This document shows, one piece after another, positions 14,538 through 22,418 of a stretch of DNA of 64,000 nt. The stretch's first letter is position 1; each line of letters opens with the position of its first letter. The stretch covers positions 62,001-126,000 of the forward strand of contig NZ_FOQV01000012.1 of the NCBI RefSeq assembly GCF_900113835.1, read 5' to 3'. The position numbers and the translations under genes are program-made. The notes under the pieces are model-generated. The model saw nothing but the letters and a program-made list of their open reading frames with translations, was not told the origin of the DNA and ran no database searches. Source of the DNA: Allobosea sp. OK403. Lineage in GTDB: Bacteria; Pseudomonadota; Alphaproteobacteria; Rhizobiales; Beijerinckiaceae.

Positions 14538-16622
<2,085 letters not shown>

Positions 16623-16686
16623 GCGCTGCCTCACGATCTGTCGATGAGTTCGATGAGGGGTATCTAACGGCTGCGTGTTGTGTTGA

Positions 16687-16726
16687 TTAGACGCCTTAAT
16701 CGACAAAGCCTCATAAGGCGATCTAA
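16687..16726. promoter_or_regulatory. Paired LysR-type binding boxes upstream of lysR and the flavodoxin gene
   Basis: TTAGACGCCTTA at 16687-16698 and TAAGGCGATCTAA at 16714-16726 form an imperfect inverted repeat. Box starts are 27 bp apart. The same box type and the same 27-bp spacing occur at 21988-22027, upstream of the secreted hydrolase operon. This is a good candidate for the binding sites of the LysR protein encoded immediately downstream. Confidence 0.7.
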
Positions 16727-16729
16727 CTA

Positions 16730-17623
16730 ATGGCGCATCCGAACTTCAACGATCTCGCCGCCTTCGCGATGGTGGCGCGCGAGCGCAGCTTCACCAGAGC
16801 CGGCGCCAAGCTTGGCGTGTCGCAGTCGGCCTTGAGCCAGACGATCAAGGGGCTCGAAGAGCGCCTCAAGCTTCGGCTGCTCACCCGCACGACGCGCAGC
16901 GTCGCGCCGACCGAGGCAGGCTTGAGGCTATTGGAGACGGTCGGGCCGCGCTTCGAAGAGATCGAGGCCGAGATCGCCGCGCTTGGCGAATTGCGCGGCA
17001 AGGCTGCCGGCACGATCCGCATCACCGCAGGCGAGCACCCGGCGATCTCGGTCCTGCAGCCTGCCCTGAAGCGGTTCCTGCCTGATCATCCCGACATCAA
17101 GGTCGAGATCATCGTCGACTACGGCCTAGTCGACATCGTGGCCGCGGGCTACGACGCCGGTGTGCGCATGGGCGAGCAGGTCGCCAAGGACATGATCGCG
17201 GTGCGGATCGGGCCGGAGATGCGCATGGCGGTGGTCGGCTCGCCGGGCTATCTCGAACGGCATGGCGTGCCCGTGACGCCGCAAGATCTGACCGCCCATA
17301 ACTGCATCGCCACCCGCATGCCGACCCATGGCGGCCTCTTCGCGTGGGGACTGGAGAAGGACGGCCACGAGGTCAAGGTCCGCTCGGACGGGCAGCTCGT
17401 CTTTAACAACCTCGCCATGCGGCTGAGCTCGGCGCTGGACGGGCTCGGCCTCGCATACATGCCGGAAGATCATGCCATCCCGCATGTCCGAGACGGCCGG
17501 TTGGTGCGGGTGCTCGAGGATTGGTGCGCGCCGTTCCCCGGCTATCACCTCTATTATCCGAGCCGCCGGCACTCCTCTTCTGCGTTGTCGGTGCTGATCG
17601 ACGCGTTGCGCTACCGGGACTGA
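16730..17623 (+). CDS. LysR family transcriptional regulator
   Basis: 297 residues. The N-terminal helix-turn-helix is in the standard place (residues about 5-63; FTRAGAKLGVSQSALSQTIKGLE), followed by the linker and effector-binding domain (IRITAGEHPAISVLQPALKRF). It resembles the subgroup often found next to oxidoreductases and aldo-keto reductases. It is divergent from the flavodoxin/AKR genes with paired boxes in between. Its 3' end overlaps by 13 bp the 3' end of the convergent hydrolase pseudogene. Confidence 0.95.
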   Translation: MAHPNFNDLAAFAMVARERSFTRAGAKLGVSQSALSQTIKGLEERLKLRLLTRTTRSVAPTEAGLRLLETVGPRFEEIEAEIAALGELRGKAAGTIRITAGEHPAISVLQPALKRFLPDHPDIKVEIIVDYGLVDIVAAGYDAGVRMGEQVAKDMIAVRIGPEMRMAVVGSPGYLERHGVPVTPQDLTAHNCIATRMPTHGGLFAWGLEKDGHEVKVRSDGQLVFNNLAMRLSSALDGLGLAYMPEDHAIPHVRDGRLVRVLEDWCAPFPGYHLYYPSRRHSSSALSVLIDALRYRD

Positions 17624-18465
17624 CGCCGCATCCAGAAGCGGATCGCCCCATCGATCCAGCCTATCGCGCTCGTCCCGACGCCGAGGCCAAAACCATGGCC
17701 GACGCCAGGATACTCGCGATAGTCGACCTCGGTGCCGAGGCGGCGCAATGCCGCCACGCGCTGGCGCATCGCAGTTGGCGGGGCGATGCCATCCTGGTCA
17801 CCGACGAGAGCGAAGGTCGGCGATTCGGTGGCCGCATGGTCGGAATGAGCCGTATAGGCCATGACGTCCGCGGCTGGTTTCGGGAGCTCGGGGCCGCCAT
17901 AGGATGAGACGCCATGGCTGCCGACGGACGCTGCCATGCGGGCGCCAGCCAAGCTACCCCACAGCGAATAGCCGCGCGTGTCCACGTCGAGCCTCGCGGC
18001 GTTGCGGAAGACGAAGTCGATCGCCGCAGCCAGATCCTGCGTCGCCACGCCGCTGCCCTTGCCGGCGCGGTCCTTCACGACGAAGGCGCTCAGCCCTGCG
18101 TCGCTGACCGCAGCCGCATAGGGGAAACCCTCGTGCACCGAGCCGACATAGGCGAAGCCGCCGCCGGGCGCGATGATGGCAAAGGGCGCGTTCGGCTTGC
18201 CGGGCAGGAAGAACAGCCCGGCATGAGCCTTGGGCGGCTCCGCGCGCATCTCGGCCTAGAAGATCTGGCGGCGCTGTTCGGCACCGTCGATCAGGCGGTT
18301 GAGGGCGCCGAGCGTCGAGGCGGCGTCGACATGGCTGTGATAGGGGAGCAGGGATCCGAGGGTGTCGGGCCTGGCCTGCAGATCATAGTCCCGGTCGTCC
18401 CAGGGCAGCGGTGGGCGAAACCCGTGAAGGCTGGGTGAGAGATCAGATCCTAGTGCTCTCGGCAG
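17611..18465 (-). pseudogene. Alpha/beta hydrolase pseudogene (amber stop and lost catalytic serine)
   Basis: One continuous reading frame encodes an alpha/beta hydrolase of the BD-FAE/esterase kind. It runs from about 18465 (GFRPPLPWDDRDYDLQARP), through AEQRRQIF, then a TAG at 18256-18258, and then on (AEMRAEPPKAHAGLFFLPGK) to the end at 17611. The stop interrupts otherwise family-like sequence in the same frame. No ATG, GTG or TTG start remains at the 5' end. The nucleophile elbow reads W-G-S-L-A-G instead of W-G-x-S-A-G, with a TTG codon at 17950-17952 where serine TCG is expected. A 212-residue product from the ATG at 18249 could still be made but would lack the nucleophile. The rest of the fold is well preserved, so decay is recent. 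Confidence 0.8.
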
Positions 18466-18616
18466 TCAGGCGACCACGAGGCTTGTCGGCGCTCGGAGGG
18501 GGCTGAGCCACGGCACCCTGAGCGCCGATCACGAGAAGCGGCAAGGCCAGGCAATCCCGCCGAGAAGCGAGGCAGCCGGGCCGGGCTCTCCGCTTTCGTT
18601 TGTCGTTTATCGCGTC

Positions 18617-19342
18617 CTATCCCTGCGGAGCCGGTTCCGTGCGCTCGGCAGCCGTTGTCGGCCGGTTCGTCGACGGCCGACCTCTCTGGACCGGCTGCAG
18701 GCCGTAAAAGGTCGCCACCATCACCAGCCCGGCGACTGCAGCGCAGTGGACGAAGAAGCCCGCGACCGAGGCCTCAAAGTCCCACCAGTCCAGCGTCATC
18801 TGCATGGAAAGCTTGCCGCCGAGGCCAAGGACAGTGCAGCTCCAGAAGCCGTGAAGCGCGATTCCCAGCGCGACGGCACGCAGCAAAAGCGTTCGCAGCG
18901 CGCTCGGCTTCCTGATCCCGAACAGCTTGCGCGCGATGCCCATCAGCATCGGCCAACGCAGCCCGAGATGGATTGAGACGATGATCAGCACCCAGTATGC
19001 CGCGAGCGTGTGGATCTGCCGGACAGTGAACCCGCCCCAGGGCGGCAGGAACGGCGACAGCGCGTTCGAGATCAGCACGCTCGTGACCAGCAATGCGAGC
19101 ATGGCACCGAGCAGTACGACTGTGACTCCGAGATTGACCAGGCTGCGCGGCTCGCGACGCGTCCGAGGGATGCCGCCCCACCATCGCCGGTTGAAGAAGT
19201 TGTGGGCGATCAGCAGCAGGAACATTGCCGCCCCGGTGACCTCATGGACGAGGTTGCCGAGCCACCAATAGGCGAAGCCGAGCAGCAGCAGCCCGACGGA
19301 CAAGCCATCGAGCCAGAGCCGAGACAGAAACAGGCGGTTCAC
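18617..19342 (-). CDS. DUF4405/cytochrome b561-like membrane protein
   Basis: 241 residues from a GTG at 19342 (VNRLFLSRLWLDGLSVGLLL), with GGGAG upstream. Several hydrophobic helices carry paired histidines suited to heme b: WWLGNLVHEVTGAAMFLLLIAHNFFN and RQIHTLAAYWVLIIVSIHLGLRW, with further H in the C-terminal helices (ALHGFWS, FFVHCAAVAG). Predicted role: inner-membrane electron carrier that could serve the exported c-type cytochrome encoded 17 bp upstream in the same operon. Confidence 0.82.
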   Translation of the reverse strand: MNRLFLSRLWLDGLSVGLLLLGFAYWWLGNLVHEVTGAAMFLLLIAHNFFNRRWWGGIPRTRREPRSLVNLGVTVVLLGAMLALLVTSVLISNALSPFLPPWGGFTVRQIHTLAAYWVLIIVSIHLGLRWPMLMGIARKLFGIRKPSALRTLLLRAVALGIALHGFWSCTVLGLGGKLSMQMTLDWWDFEASVAGFFVHCAAVAGLVMVATFYGLQPVQRGRPSTNRPTTAAERTEPAPQG

Positions 19343-19359
19343 GGCGCGATCTCCCGCGG

Positions 19360-19842
19360 CTATTCGATCGGCGTTCCGTTGAAGCGAGGAATGCGCGAGC
19401 CGGTGAACAGATACTCCGCCCCCGACTGGCTCTGGTGGCAGGACTGGCAGCGGGCGGTGTTCTCGGCGGTGTTGATCGACTTGTCGGGCCAGAACCATTG
19501 GAACTGCCAGTCGCCGGTGCGGCGGCGCTCGTCATAGTCGGCGCCCCAGCCCTGGCCCTTCTCCATAACGAAGTAGCGGAAGAGCTTGCCGTCGCGATAG
19601 TCGACCAGCACGAAATGCGTGCCCGCCGGCACCGGCTGGCGGTTCTTGACCGCCTCGATCGCGGCGGGCGTCGTCATGATGCGCTCGGTGACGTTGCCAC
19701 GCCGGACAGTAGTGTAGTGAACCAGCTTGTCGAACTCGGGAAACGTGGCGCGGGTGGGCTCTGCATGGACCTGCCAGCCGACCGTCAGCACGGCGGCCAT
19801 CGACAGGCTCACCGCTGCGTTCTGGAAGGTGGGGATTTTCAT
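19360..19842 (-). CDS. Exported c-type cytochrome, P460 family-like
   Basis: 160 residues from the ATG at 19842. MKIPTFQNAAVSLSMAAVL and then VHAEP form a clear Sec signal peptide with A-x-A-like cleavage. The mature part carries one heme-attachment motif, CQSCH, near residues 136-140. Upstream of it is GTHFVLVDYRDGKLFRYFVM and a W-rich stretch (WQFQWFWPD) typical of the cytochrome P460 family. In true P460 enzymes the heme is cross-linked to a lysine; that cannot be judged here. It lies between the membrane cytochrome b and the cupin gene. Confidence 0.82.
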   Translation of the reverse strand: MKIPTFQNAAVSLSMAAVLTVGWQVHAEPTRATFPEFDKLVHYTTVRRGNVTERIMTTPAAIEAVKNRQPVPAGTHFVLVDYRDGKLFRYFVMEKGQGWGADYDERRRTGDWQFQWFWPDKSINTAENTARCQSCHQSQSGAEYLFTGSRIPRFNGTPIE

Positions 19843-19855
19843 GATTGCGTCGATC

Positions 19856-20338
19856 CTATCGCCGGTAATGCTCGTCGGAGACAGCTTCCAGCCACTCGAC
19901 GGTCTTGCCGTCGAGCGCTTCGGATATCGCGACATGGGTCATCCCATTCGTCGCGGACGCGCCGTGCCAGTGCTTCACCCCCGGCGGGATCCAGACGGTG
20001 TCGCCGGTGCGGATTTCCTGAACCGGCCCATCCCAGTGCTGCACCAGCCCGACGCCGGTCGTGACGAAAAGAGTCTGGCCGAGCGGATGGGTGTGCCACG
20101 CCGTCCGGGCGCCGGGCTCGAAGCTGACGGTGCCGCCGCTGATCCGCGCCGGCGCGGTTCCCTGGAACCGTCCGTCGACACGCACAGTGCCGGTGAAGTT
20201 CTGGGCGGGGCCGACGCTTGGCGCCTGCGCGCCGGCACGCTGCACGGTGACGGCCTGCGCGGTCTGGGAGAGCGCGTCGGCTGCGGGCATCAGGCCTGCG
20301 ACGACGGCGAGGATTTTGGCTGACATCGCGATGCTCAC
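19856..20338 (-). CDS. Exported cupin-domain protein
   Basis: 160 residues with a signal peptide-like N-terminus (MSAKILAVVAGLMPAADALS; ATG at 20338 or four codons later). A single cupin barrel has motif 1 HTHPLGQTLFVTTG and motif 2 GDTVWIPPGVKHWHGA, giving the usual His-His-(Q)-His metal set. Cupins with an adjacent CMD gene are common; here the start overlaps the CMD stop by 4 bases, so they are translationally coupled. Predicted to be a periplasmic metal-dependent oxygenase, isomerase or sensor of a small organic compound. Confidence 0.88.
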   Translation of the reverse strand: MSIAMSAKILAVVAGLMPAADALSQTAQAVTVQRAGAQAPSVGPAQNFTGTVRVDGRFQGTAPARISGGTVSFEPGARTAWHTHPLGQTLFVTTGVGLVQHWDGPVQEIRTGDTVWIPPGVKHWHGASATNGMTHVAISEALDGKTVEWLEAVSDEHYRR

Positions 20339-20751
20339 TTGGGTTTGAAGACGTCGCGGGCGATGCCGATCGCGACGATGGCGTTGGGCCAGCCGGCATA
20401 GAAGGCGAGCTGTGTGATCGCCTCGACGATCTCCTCCTCCTTGACGCCATTGGTGCGCGCCAGAGCGATGTGCGAGCGCAACTGCTCTGGGTGGTTCTTC
20501 GCGATCAGGGCAGCCACGGTGATCAGGCTGCGGTCGCGCTTGGCCAGGCCGGGACGTTCCCAGATGTCGCCGAACAGGACGCTGTCTGTCAGCTCCGCCA
20601 TTTTGGGCGCGATATCGCCCATCAGTTGCTGGGCACGGGACGGCGGCTTGGACCCAGGCGAATTTGGGCTCTGCGTCTGGGCGCCTGCTGCCGTGACGCC
20701 TGCGGCGAAAAGGCCGGCAGCGGCGACGATAGCGCTGATGAGGGTACTCAT
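20335..20751 (-). CDS. Exported carboxymuconolactone decarboxylase (CMD/AhpD-like) protein
   Basis: 138 residues from the ATG at 20751 (MSTLISAIVAAAGLFAAGVTAAGAQ), which gives a clean signal peptide. A longer upstream frame lacks it. The CMD core is present: RDRSLITVAALIAKNHPEQLRSHI and then EEEIVEAITQLAFYAGWPNA. The AhpD C-x-x-C is absent, as in gamma-CMD-type proteins. Export is unusual, since most CMD proteins are cytosolic. It is coupled to the cupin gene and downstream of the secreted hydrolase gene. Confidence 0.88.
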   Translation of the reverse strand: MSTLISAIVAAAGLFAAGVTAAGAQTQSPNSPGSKPPSRAQQLMGDIAPKMAELTDSVLFGDIWERPGLAKRDRSLITVAALIAKNHPEQLRSHIALARTNGVKEEEIVEAITQLAFYAGWPNAIVAIGIARDVFKPK

Positions 20752-20839
20752 GGGGGAGGTTGTCCTTATGAATGGCGGACGCGGCAGTCGATCCAGGAAG
20801 GCCGCCTGTGCCGGGTGTTGGCTCAACCGGCGAAAGCGC

Positions 20840-21931
20840 TCAGTCGAGCTTCTTCTCGGCCAGGAACGTCGTGACCTGATCGGCGATCTCGATGTTGTTC
20901 AGGTCCGAGAACGGAAAATGCGTGTTCCCCCGGATCCCGGCCTCGGGAAGGTGAACGAGCCTGACCTGTCCACCATGCTTGTTGACCGTGTCGGCCCAGA
21001 TCCGCGCCATCTCCAGTCGGCCGCGCCAGGCGTCCTGCGTCGGCACGTCGGTCGGCTTCGCCGGGATGTTGTCGCCGTAAAACACGATGATCGGCAGCTT
21101 GGTCAGCGCCATGAAGTCAGCCATCGGAACCGGCACGCCCTCGATCATGTCGAAGGAGGTAGGCACTGGCTTGGGCAGTTCGCCCTGCGGGAAGACGAAG
21201 CCGCTGCCCGGCTCGAAGGCAACGATTGCCTTGACGTCGGGGCTCTTGATCGCGGTGAGCCAGCCCGGACCGCCGCTCTGCGAATGCGTCATCAGGATGC
21301 CCGGCCCGATCCTGGCGAAGAGCGCTGAGACGCTGTCGGATATCAGGGTGGCGTCGAACGGCCCGGTGTTCGGCGTCATCGCCCGGAAATACTGGTTCAG
21401 GGTCTCCGGCTTGCGGTCGAACTGGACGCCGTCGAAATAGTTCGGCCAGATGCCTATACGGAATTGGCCGAACCAGAACTGTTCGTCGGGCGTGGGCTTC
21501 AGCGTCGCCTCGACGGTACTGCGGCCCGCATTGCCGCGCCGTGGCTGGTCGATGAGATAGGTTGCGAAGCGGCGTCGCAGGAAGATGTTCTGGAAACCCT
21601 CGCGCCCGTCCGGCGTCGTCTCCCAGGTCTTCGAGAACTGGCCCGCGCCATGCCACATCACGATGGGCAGGCTGCGGGCGTTCACCGGCACTTGGTAGAA
21701 TGCGTAGAGATGGTCGCCGTGGAAGGTCTGTCCCATCGGCGCCAAGGGTTTGAGCGGATCGAATGTGCCCGGCGCGGTCGTGACGGAGCCGCCGACGGCG
21801 AAGCTGCCCTGGTCTTGAATGAGGACCGGCTCGGTGCGCGCGGCCTGCTGGGCGGCTGTAGGCAGCGATACCAGTATGGCGGCGCCTATCAGGAGCGCCG
21901 TCCCAGAAGTGCGTTTTGTCATTGCAGGCAT
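20840..21931 (-). CDS. Exported alpha/beta hydrolase, first gene of the redox operon
   Basis: 363 residues with an N-terminal signal peptide (MTKRTSGTALLIGAAILVS, cleavage after TAAQQA). The start may be ATG 21931 or 21922. The hydrolase fold shows an oxyanion strand PIVMWHGAGQFSKTW, a nucleophile region GILMTHSQSGGPGW (S in H-S-Q-S-G-G) and a late histidine in GIRGNTHFPFSD. The substrate is unknown. It is preceded by two boxes matching those in front of the LysR gene and followed on the same strand by CMD, cupin, cytochrome c, cytochrome b and the dead hydrolase. Confidence 0.87.
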   Translation of the reverse strand: MPAMTKRTSGTALLIGAAILVSLPTAAQQAARTEPVLIQDQGSFAVGGSVTTAPGTFDPLKPLAPMGQTFHGDHLYAFYQVPVNARSLPIVMWHGAGQFSKTWETTPDGREGFQNIFLRRRFATYLIDQPRRGNAGRSTVEATLKPTPDEQFWFGQFRIGIWPNYFDGVQFDRKPETLNQYFRAMTPNTGPFDATLISDSVSALFARIGPGILMTHSQSGGPGWLTAIKSPDVKAIVAFEPGSGFVFPQGELPKPVPTSFDMIEGVPVPMADFMALTKLPIIVFYGDNIPAKPTDVPTQDAWRGRLEMARIWADTVNKHGGQVRLVHLPEAGIRGNTHFPFSDLNNIEIADQVTTFLAEKKLD

Positions 21932-21987
21932 CGGTCCCTCGGTCGCTATCAGCGTCCGGTGAACCTAACGGCCCGGGCAGTGTTCGA

Positions 21988-22027
21988 TTAGGCGCCTAAA
22001 CCCACTAGGACCAATTAGTCCGCCTAA
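21988..22027. promoter_or_regulatory. Paired LysR-type boxes upstream of the secreted hydrolase operon
   Basis: TTAGGCGCCTAA (21988-21999, a perfect 12-bp palindrome) and TTAGTCCGCCTAA (22015-22027) lie about 60-95 bp before the hydrolase start. Their 27-bp spacing equals that of the boxes at 16687 and 16714. The region 21932-22097 otherwise holds no gene. Confidence 0.7.
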
Positions 22028-22097
22028 TAAATCATTAGCTTCGCAGTTTCGATAAATGTCCGCTTTGCGCCCTGCCGCGAGAGCGGCTTAATCCATT

Positions 22098-22418
22098 GGC
22101 GCCTCGCCGGCATCGGACAAGTCGGCATTCGGGCAAATCTTGGCGCGCTGGCCGGTGGGCGGCTAGGCGCGGAGCTGACCGCAATCCGGCTGTGCGAGGA
22201 CAGCTCGGCGCGACAGGCGGGGATGGGCCGGCAATCGCCCCTTCCGGCCTTCGGGCCGGCTGAGCGGGCGGCGAACCGGCCGTCATTCACCGAGCCGCAC
22301 AATCGCGATCGAGCGGGAAGATCGGCCGGCGGGCGCGCCGATAGGGCAGCTTCGTCAGGTCCGGCGTGCACAGCGCGCCGCTGTCGCAGACGATCACCTT
22401 GCCGGCGATCGGCTCGAA
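22098..22418. repeat. Direct repeat, right copy: M81 gene 3' end plus downstream flank
   Basis: About 321 bp matching 14633-14970 in the same orientation. It covers the last 43 or so codons of the intact M81 gene (22287-22418) and about 190 bp of non-coding flank (22098-22286), where I see no gene. Together the two copies bracket about 7.1 kb. Confidence 0.85.

Follow-up and report, generated by a model that had tools for sequence, protein, structure and literature searches.

A conserved bacterial operon combining exported enzymes with a cytochrome c'-beta-like protein and a DUF4405 cytochrome b: a possible LysR-induced periplasmic detoxification module

The results presented here point, with a probability that we put at roughly one half, to a detoxification module of the periplasm that LysR induces and that a DUF4405 protein and a cytochrome c'-beta-like protein link to the quinone pool. 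It lies in a stretch of 64,000 nucleotides (the window) from Allobosea sp. OK403, a soil bacterium, and the reading draws on observed gene content, conservation, leaders recognized by rule, heme and active-site residues and a LysR box. In the electron-relay half of the proposed mechanism, the DUF4405 protein (heme b, membrane, quinone pool) would work with the c'-beta cytochrome, joined in part of the loci by an exported flavin protein, either a Tat-type flavodoxin or an FMN-bind-like protein encoded beside ApbE. The exported-chemistry half would consist of a SulE-like esterase, further hydrolases, a cupin and a CMD protein. Electrons would flow outward from quinol, with the cytochrome as carrier or peroxidase, and an aldo/keto reductase (AKR), cytoplasmic in the window and Tat-exported in some other loci, would handle reactive carbonyls. 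Inducer and substrate may be a reactive electrophile, quinone, phenolic ester or peroxide. A preliminary description of this DNA had proposed oxidation through a fixed chain of hydrolase, cupin and CMD protein; the analysis supports neither that direction nor that chain.

The five genes were confirmed where they had been described, as real, closely packed genes on the minus strand (Table 1). Their junctions measure 88 bp (HYD-CMD), -4 bp (CMD-cupin, an overlap), 13 bp (cupin-CYT) and 17 bp (CYT-DUF4405).

Table 1. Features of the operon and its surroundings, in window coordinates.
Feature	Position	Strand	Residues or evidence
HYD, exported alpha/beta hydrolase, SulE / 4q34 / esterase 713 family	20840..21931	-	Ser217, Glu240, His338
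CMD, exported, gamma-CMD-type, cysteine-free	20335..20751	-	Pfam and NCBIfam scans, alignment
CUP, cupin above the NCBIfam (R)-mandelonitrile lyase cut-off; signal peptide borderline	19856..20338	-	
CYT, exported one-heme cytochrome (CQSCH), c'-beta-like	19360..19842	-	Leu79, Phe91, Arg48 cap
DUF4405, six-helix cytochrome b	18617..19342	-	His33, 47, 111, 125
Degenerate exported-esterase gene	17611..18540 (upstream bound approximate)	-	Stop codons, disrupted frame, GSSAG with Leu for Ser
LysR-type regulator, divergent from flavodoxin-AKR	16730..17623	+	
FLD, Flavodoxin_4 with Tat-like leader	16032..16622	-	Pfam; SRKAIL
AKR, aldo/keto reductase without N-terminal extension	14975..15970	-	
LysR-box-like site, LysR-FLD intergenic region	16684..16704	+	Weight matrix; site in training set
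Two more box-like sites, 54-99 bp upstream of HYD	21985..22030		Scores 10.4, 10.6
Left direct repeat, containing a second copy of the final 44 codons of an M81-family gene	14667..14970	+	
Right direct repeat; overlaps the M81-family gene proper at its 3' end	22118..22418	+	

The preliminary description had proposed a survey for co-occurrence, and the families do keep company: all five (HYD, CMD, cupin, CYT and DUF4405) were found together in 41 of the 80 CYT loci, often in unchanged order. These counts cover up to 10 kb per side (16 loci were shorter than 18 kb) and include related loci that are not independent. A LysR match was present in 38 of the 41 loci. Taken singly, DUF4405 occurred in 79 of the 80 loci, cupin in 59, HYD in 58 and CMD in 51, against 0-20 of 80 for 30 control ORFs that were chosen mechanically and some of which may not be genes. 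In 78 of the 79 DUF4405-bearing loci that gene followed CYT on the same strand by less than 150 bp. Not all parts are required everywhere, since the DNA compared lacked a cupin in 21 loci and a CMD in 29. Hydrolases were frequent partners in general; the window lacks a second one that 41 of the 80 loci carry, and its downstream exported-esterase gene is broken.

The name P460-family cytochrome given to CYT in the preliminary description holds for the Pfam family (Cytochrome_P460, 48.2 bits, above cut-off) and fails for a cross-linked P460. Leucine (Leu79) stands at the position of the cross-link lysine (McP460 Lys78) and phenylalanine (Phe91) at that of the distal carboxylate, the catalytic acid, in 80 of 80 rows (the window and 79 others; 4 of 83 other matches were dropped for coverage or stops). 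Because both residues are replaced throughout, CYT is, as judged from its residues, cytochrome c'-beta-like and not a true P460, and hydroxylamine oxidation by CYT was ruled out on the same grounds. The acid position was mapped through NeCP-beta Ala109, as McP460 Asp102 itself falls in an alignment gap. Distant rows in a separate alignment (A1) carried Leu or Met at the cross-link position (Met in L017 and L019), and three of them (L017, L018 and L019) had Val or Leu at the acid position. Among the chains compared, the best structural match was Nitrosomonas c'-beta (Z 15.5). The sequence and fold features of c'-beta proteins were found: the same fold, a CxxCH motif, no lysine, and a Phe or Arg cap. 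With NeCP-beta (7s5o) CYT shares the fold, the single CxxCH, the missing cross-link lysine and the Arg cap (Arg48, 80 of 80 rows); it differs in having Leu for Met and Phe for Ala and in standing nearly always beside DUF4405. According to the accessible part of PMC11928373, Nitrosomonas c'-beta has guaiacol peroxidase activity and a gas-binding role has been proposed for c'-beta proteins.

The DUF4405 protein scored 35 bits, above the Pfam cut-off, and its four histidines were conserved (H33, H111 and H125 in 64/64 rows, H47 in 63/64; the window and 63 of 82 other matches). The predicted structure has six long helices (pLDDT 83.7), which with the four histidines points to a cytochrome b; the best PDB row was a hydrogenase cytochrome b at Z 10.1, a value at which a helical bundle proves little. 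The heme-b membrane protein previously proposed to follow CYT, and with it the c-type and b-type pair, was thus supported. In the accessible text of PMC11334425, a related DUF4405 protein binds heme B and DUF4405 genes pair with Flavodoxin_4 and ApbE. The module resembles those extracytosolic electron-transfer systems, within the same limits of that source, in its six-helix protein with four conserved histidines, its Flavodoxin_4 partner and, in some loci, ApbE with an FMN-bind-like gene; it differs in the additional c'-beta cytochrome, cupin, CMD and esterases and in the window genome, where no apbE match was found (7 of 14 control genomes were positive).

The flavodoxin, previously seen as a cytoplasmic helper, does not fit that role with its Tat-like leader, whose motif reads SRRAIL in the relative L053. 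FLD occurred in only 16 of the 80 loci, ApbE in 10 and an adjoining FMN-bind-like gene in 8. FLD and ApbE never overlapped, against about 2 loci expected by simple product, and none of the 16 FLD loci had an FMN-bind-like gene; these counts are suggestive only of mutually exclusive carriers. The window AKR is probably cytoplasmic, given its start. For the Tat-exported AKR of other loci, the two best matches in the window genome (56-57%), the first of them the window AKR, begin at query residue 54-55, and no close match there reached through the leader, the leaders of close matches only having been compared.

CMD scored 77.3 bits, above its Pfam cut-off. An AhpD-type peroxidase was ruled out, as the protein has no cysteine and hence no CxxC motif, and so were the ECF41 'COE' operons, whose CMD proteins are CxxC-bearing and sigma-factor linked in the accessible part of PMC3426412. 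The cupin scored above cut-off for Cupin_2 (45.1 bits) and for (R)-mandelonitrile lyase (183.6 bits, cut-off 140), and matched PDB 4bif at E 9.7e-51. H82, H84 and H123 were present in 62 of 62 rows and Q88 in at least 95%; the metal ligands of the lyase are His, His, Gln and His. The cupin therefore has the metal-site residues of the lyase, its lyase activity being putative, and is unlike 4bif in its likely export as part of the operon.

HYD fell under the Abhydrolase_6 cut-off (22.7 bits, cut-off 26.3) and matched SulE chains (E 6.8e-64) and 4q34 (E 1e-121). The Ser-Glu-His triad, taken from the accessible part of PMC10356948, was kept in 58 of 58 rows (the window and 57 others). HYD is like SulE, which de-esterifies sulfonylureas (same source), in family, triad and signal peptide, and unlike it in being embedded in a redox operon.

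Signal peptides were judged by a home-made rule. HYD, CMD and CYT of the window passed; the cupin has a hydrophobic N-terminal extension and failed, with an Asp ahead of the likely cut. Of the four exported proteins previously claimed, three were thus supported and the cupin is borderline. Cupins directly upstream of CYT passed in 39 of 43 cases, the window cupin being among the 4 failures. LysR proteins passed in 2 of 87 cases; the rule is not specific, however, because AKRs without a leader also passed (AKR 9/9, sAKR1 30/37, sAKR3 21/25). Matches starting after query residue 45 or lacking a start codon were omitted from the leader counts (respectively 14 and 2 of 67 for CMD, 0 and 1 of 84 for CYT, 2 and 1 of 62 for HYD forms; 4 of 70 for cupin). 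Across 240 genomes surveyed from the class, the rule recognized no leader in 18 of the 22 CUP-family cupins found outside the window genome, 2 of these 18 lacking a candidate start codon; among the survey cupins outside CYT operons, 3 of 21 passed. The earlier view that an exported CMD with an exported cupin is unusual gains from these counts for the cupin and loses for CMD, an exported double CMD being present in two survey loci (L134 and L142).

The LysR-box-like site recurred upstream of HYD by weight matrix, where the window box (10.6) lies between the 95th (5.3) and 99th (11.2) percentiles of random stretches. Among 82 operon promoters, 37 had a box above the 95th percentile, 19 of these above the 99th, and 45 had none above the 95th; the first operon gene was assigned mechanically, and two of 84 loci were left out, one having no upstream DNA and one a promoter in common with LysR. 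A CTAAT-N-ATTAG pattern had one match in the window and none upstream of the LysR genes examined, and the weight matrix was used instead.

Several other readings were weighed. The genes might form an island of separate units (cupin-CMD, CYT-DUF4405, hydrolases) under a single regulator and not one pathway, as the units do occur apart: CYT-DUF4405 stands without cupin or CMD in L083, L084, L108 and L124 (the last only 6.4 kb), and the 14-kb loci L134 and L142 have a double CMD and cupin without CYT. We regard this as unlikely, the retention of five families in half of the loci, often in the same order, arguing against it. A catabolic route seems less probable still; in it, opening of an ester or lactone by the hydrolase would be followed by conversion through cupin and CMD, with electrons passing via CYT and DUF4405 to the respiratory chain. 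The gamma-CMD-like, cysteine-free CMD, the many hydrolases and transport genes (an ABC ATPase cluster in 12 of 83 loci at a median of 8 kb, SBP_bac_5 in 5, TctC in 4) are consistent with it; on the other side, CMD lies far under the PcaC decarboxylase (TIGR02425) cut-off (76.4 vs 155.7 bits) and no ring-cleavage enzyme was found in the 24 largest neighbour clusters (representatives Pfam-scanned, 2 without match).

Quite doubtful is a quinol-driven periplasmic reductase system in which DUF4405, the c'-beta cytochrome and an exported flavin carrier, for which Tat flavodoxin and the ApbE-linked FMN protein would be alternatives, would feed electrons to exported enzymes including the Tat-AKR. That AKR keeps its catalytic residues and, being outside the cytoplasm, would have to recycle trapped NADP(H); in this scheme the window operon would represent a form lacking it. 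Nitrogen-oxide handling, with CYT binding NO or oxidizing hydroxylamine, is highly improbable: the gas-binding role proposed for c'-beta proteins (PMC11928373, accessible part) speaks for it, whereas the lysine and acid of hydroxylamine oxidation are missing and none of the 24 scanned clusters held a nitrogen-cycle enzyme.

For the detoxification module, parallels exist among known systems, as far as the accessible portions of the sources go. As regards the direction of electron flow, where oxidation gained no support, the donors linked with MsrQ-like and DUF4405-type systems are membrane or cytosolic ones, and NapH-like systems serve reductases and oxidases alike (PMC11334425, PMC8238504). 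MsrPQ and RclABC similarly join a membrane redox protein to a periplasmic partner (PMC8238504, PMC7464077); Pfam and NCBIfam scans of ten window proteins found no MsrP, RclA or RclB family. Conserved dehalogenating regions of Sulfurospirillum likewise contain DUF4405 and a CMD-family gene, with putative quinol dehydrogenase parts, but span 50 kb around reductive dehalogenases, and the accessible part of PMC8865925 names no cytochrome P460-family gene. Among the papers listed in the literature search this was the one with both DUF4405 and CMD; none of those listed joined 'cytochrome P460' to CMD, cupin or DUF4405. In agreement with the preliminary description, no pathway with this gene combination was found in the literature searched, which covered few subscription titles. 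The combination of mostly known families appears to be new; DUF4405 electron-transfer systems are already known. It gives four families of ill-defined role (DUF4405, c'-beta cytochromes, cupin 'hydroxynitrile lyases' and SulE-like esterases) a common setting, and points to a single regulator with a single box. If electrons do run outward, the module would represent a novel means of powering detoxification in the periplasm.

Viral contigs gave 5 pattern matches, with no relative among them. The cluster is flanked by 300-bp direct repeats, at what is apparently a cassette-exchange site (40 of 115 candidates were scored in the repeat analysis). With a copy on a conjugative plasmid and this apparent exchange site, the cluster seems to be mobile among bacteria.

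The operon encoding an exported SulE-like esterase (HYD), an exported carboxymuconolactone-decarboxylase-family protein (CMD), a cupin, an exported one-heme cytochrome (CYT) and a six-helix cytochrome b (DUF4405) has junctions of 88, -4, 13 and 17 bp. A LysR gene lies downstream of a degenerate esterase in convergent orientation, and a flavodoxin-aldo/keto reductase (AKR) pair diverges from it. Our best reading, with a probability of about one half, is that the genes form a periplasmic detoxification module, induced through LysR and linked to the quinone pool. The preliminary description of an exported hydrolase-CMD-cupin-P460 oxidation/detoxification pathway stands in outline, although the kind of cytochrome and the place of the flavodoxin must be changed and oxidation is unproven.

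Features of the CYT locus (window positions)
Feature	Position	Strand	Remark
Direct repeats, about 300 bp	14667-14970 and 22118-22418		from the 3' end of an M81-family gene
Degenerate esterase	17611 to about 18540		downstream of DUF4405
HYD, CMD, cupin, CYT, DUF4405 (in that order)	18617-21931	minus	operon

A 23-row CYT alignment was scanned against a collection of 84,980 species genomes, yielding 204 matching stretches and 129 relatives. The best 80 loci from these relatives were kept, two genomes contributing two loci each, and family presence was scored by tblastn (E 1e-8) in up to 10 kb on each side of CYT (16 loci were shorter than 18 kb). DUF4405 was found in 79/80 loci, LysR in 73 (68 at ≥50% identity), the cupin in 59, HYD in 58, AKR in 55, CMD in 51, a second, YcjY-like hydrolase in 41, the exported esterase that is decayed in the window in 27 and flavodoxin in 16. 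The complete five-family set was present in 41/80 loci, 38 of which also had LysR. Among 30 control ORFs taken from the rest of the window, the most frequent reached 20/80 and 15 had no match. Close CYT matches (E <1e-70) and cupins over the cut-off are rare in the class (3 and 22 of 240 genomes surveyed), and therefore the co-location rate is not background. Hosts were mainly Rhizobiales, together with Roseomonas, Azospirillum, Nisaea, Vreelandella, Rhodoferax and Polaromonas, and are not independent. Co-occurrence of the families in other genomes was confirmed, and the original observation largely holds.

CYT residues were mapped by alignment to McP460 and NeCP-beta, the references for P460 and c'-beta cytochromes, using the residue table of PMC11928373; McP460 Lys78 and Arg50 and NeCP-beta Met79 and Arg46 (offset 20) landed as aligned. 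All 80 of 80 rows carry Leu79 in place of the cross-link lysine, Phe91 at the acid position and Arg48 as the cap. In distant relatives the cross-link position is occupied by Leu or Met, and the acid position by Phe, Val or Leu. The structure closest to the CYT AlphaFold model (pLDDT 86.8) is NeCP-beta (Z 15.5), with P460 proteins at Z 10.5-12.8. Since NeCP-beta is closest and the cross-link lysine and acid are replaced, the Pfam name P460 is misleading. Peroxidase-like activity is reported for NeCP-beta in PMC11928373. DUF4405, with four conserved His and six long helices, shares these features with the heme-B protein described in PMC11334425. HYD belongs to the SulE family and has its triad, the cupin is of the (R)-mandelonitrile lyase family, and CMD is gamma-type and cysteine-free.

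Leaders were called by a home-made rule, which passed CYT in 83/83, HYD in 59/59 (two query forms), CMD in 45/51 and the control LysR in 2/87. Cupins passed in 44/66 overall: 39/43 of those directly upstream of CYT and 5/23 of the others. The window cupin is borderline and fails. Leader-less AKRs also passed (9/9, 30/37 and 21/25), so its calls on AKRs were set aside. By eye, 14 of the 19 flavodoxins inspected have a twin-arginine leader; the window flavodoxin has Arg-Lys instead. The flavodoxin had been grouped with the AKR as handling reactive products, but with this Tat-like leader a role as a cytoplasmic helper is not supported. The window genome gave no match to ApbE, a flavinylation-system protein, and therefore its flavodoxin should hold FMN non-covalently and be exported folded. 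ApbE genes occur in 10/80 loci (Pfam), 8 with an adjoining gene for a small FMN-bind-like protein that has no Pfam match, and these loci show zero overlap with the 16 flavodoxin loci. The run ApbE, FMN-bind-like, Tat-AKR, CYT, DUF4405 (L061 7108-11198, similar in L062 and L068) is a compact relay variant; in L062 HYD is interposed.

A GATTAG-N-TAATC block is conserved among LysR upstream regions, and a matrix was built from 59 regions (54 sites). Its top site in the 64-kb window is the window's own LysR site, and of the three distinct sites ranked after it, two fall within the DNA 54-99 bp upstream of HYD. Compared with 3,494 random stretches, 19 of 82 operon promoters exceeded the 99th percentile and 37 the 95th, 45 falling below the 95th; the window's own promoter scores between the two.

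The direct repeat, whose copies match at 88% and 91% in two blocks, brackets the 7.45-kb cluster. The left copy contains the final 44 codons of an M81-family gene, whose own end is the right copy. Other genome matches reach 72-74% over ≤148 bp or are very short (40 of 115 candidates scored). In G001, which has no CYT match, the M81 end (96% identical) lies 1.9 kb from the left flank (window 12346), versus 9.9 kb in the window. In G032 and G019 about 4 kb of different DNA comes after the M81 end and is closed by another repeat copy. This DNA encodes a hydrolase (33% to the YcjY-like hydrolase) and a LysR that shares 58-59% identity with the window LysR, plus an MFS gene in G032. Given the repeats and the empty or alternative cassettes in relatives, the locus appears to be a place where LysR cassettes are exchanged. 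Relatives L169, L170 and L171 have no cluster or a different LysR cassette at the repeat site. A conjugative plasmid of Sinorhizobium meliloti also carries a copy of the cluster. In S. meliloti RCAM1115 (L027 7428-7898, 10146-10834) a stop codon interrupts CYT and the HYD match is split, so the RCAM1115 copy looks damaged.

The window's exported-esterase gene has stops, frame damage and Ser to Leu in GSSAG, whereas the L031 copy aligns in a single frame. A membrane adenylate/guanylate cyclase gene (L026 5334-6662) occurs in 8/80 loci, 5 at >50% identity. A distinct AKR form occurs in 22/80 loci and in L026-L028, and no such gene was found in the window genome. Across 25 rows, in which one sequence occurs twice, conservation is at least 95% for each of Arg11-Arg12 and for Asp103, Tyr108, Lys133 and His178, the four residues of the AKR tetrad.

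Pfam scans of the 24 largest neighbour clusters revealed many redox enzymes and no ring-cleavage enzymes; SDR, ABC ATPase, molybdenum-hydroxylase subunits, old-yellow-enzyme type, aldehyde dehydrogenase and solute-binding proteins were present, and MFS transporters occur in 29/80 loci (tblastn). Two CMD stretches plus a cupin, separate from the CYT operon, appear in L066, L087, L099, L111, L113, L118, L120, L134 and L142, the last two without any CYT in the locus DNA, and form a related unit that may be free-standing.
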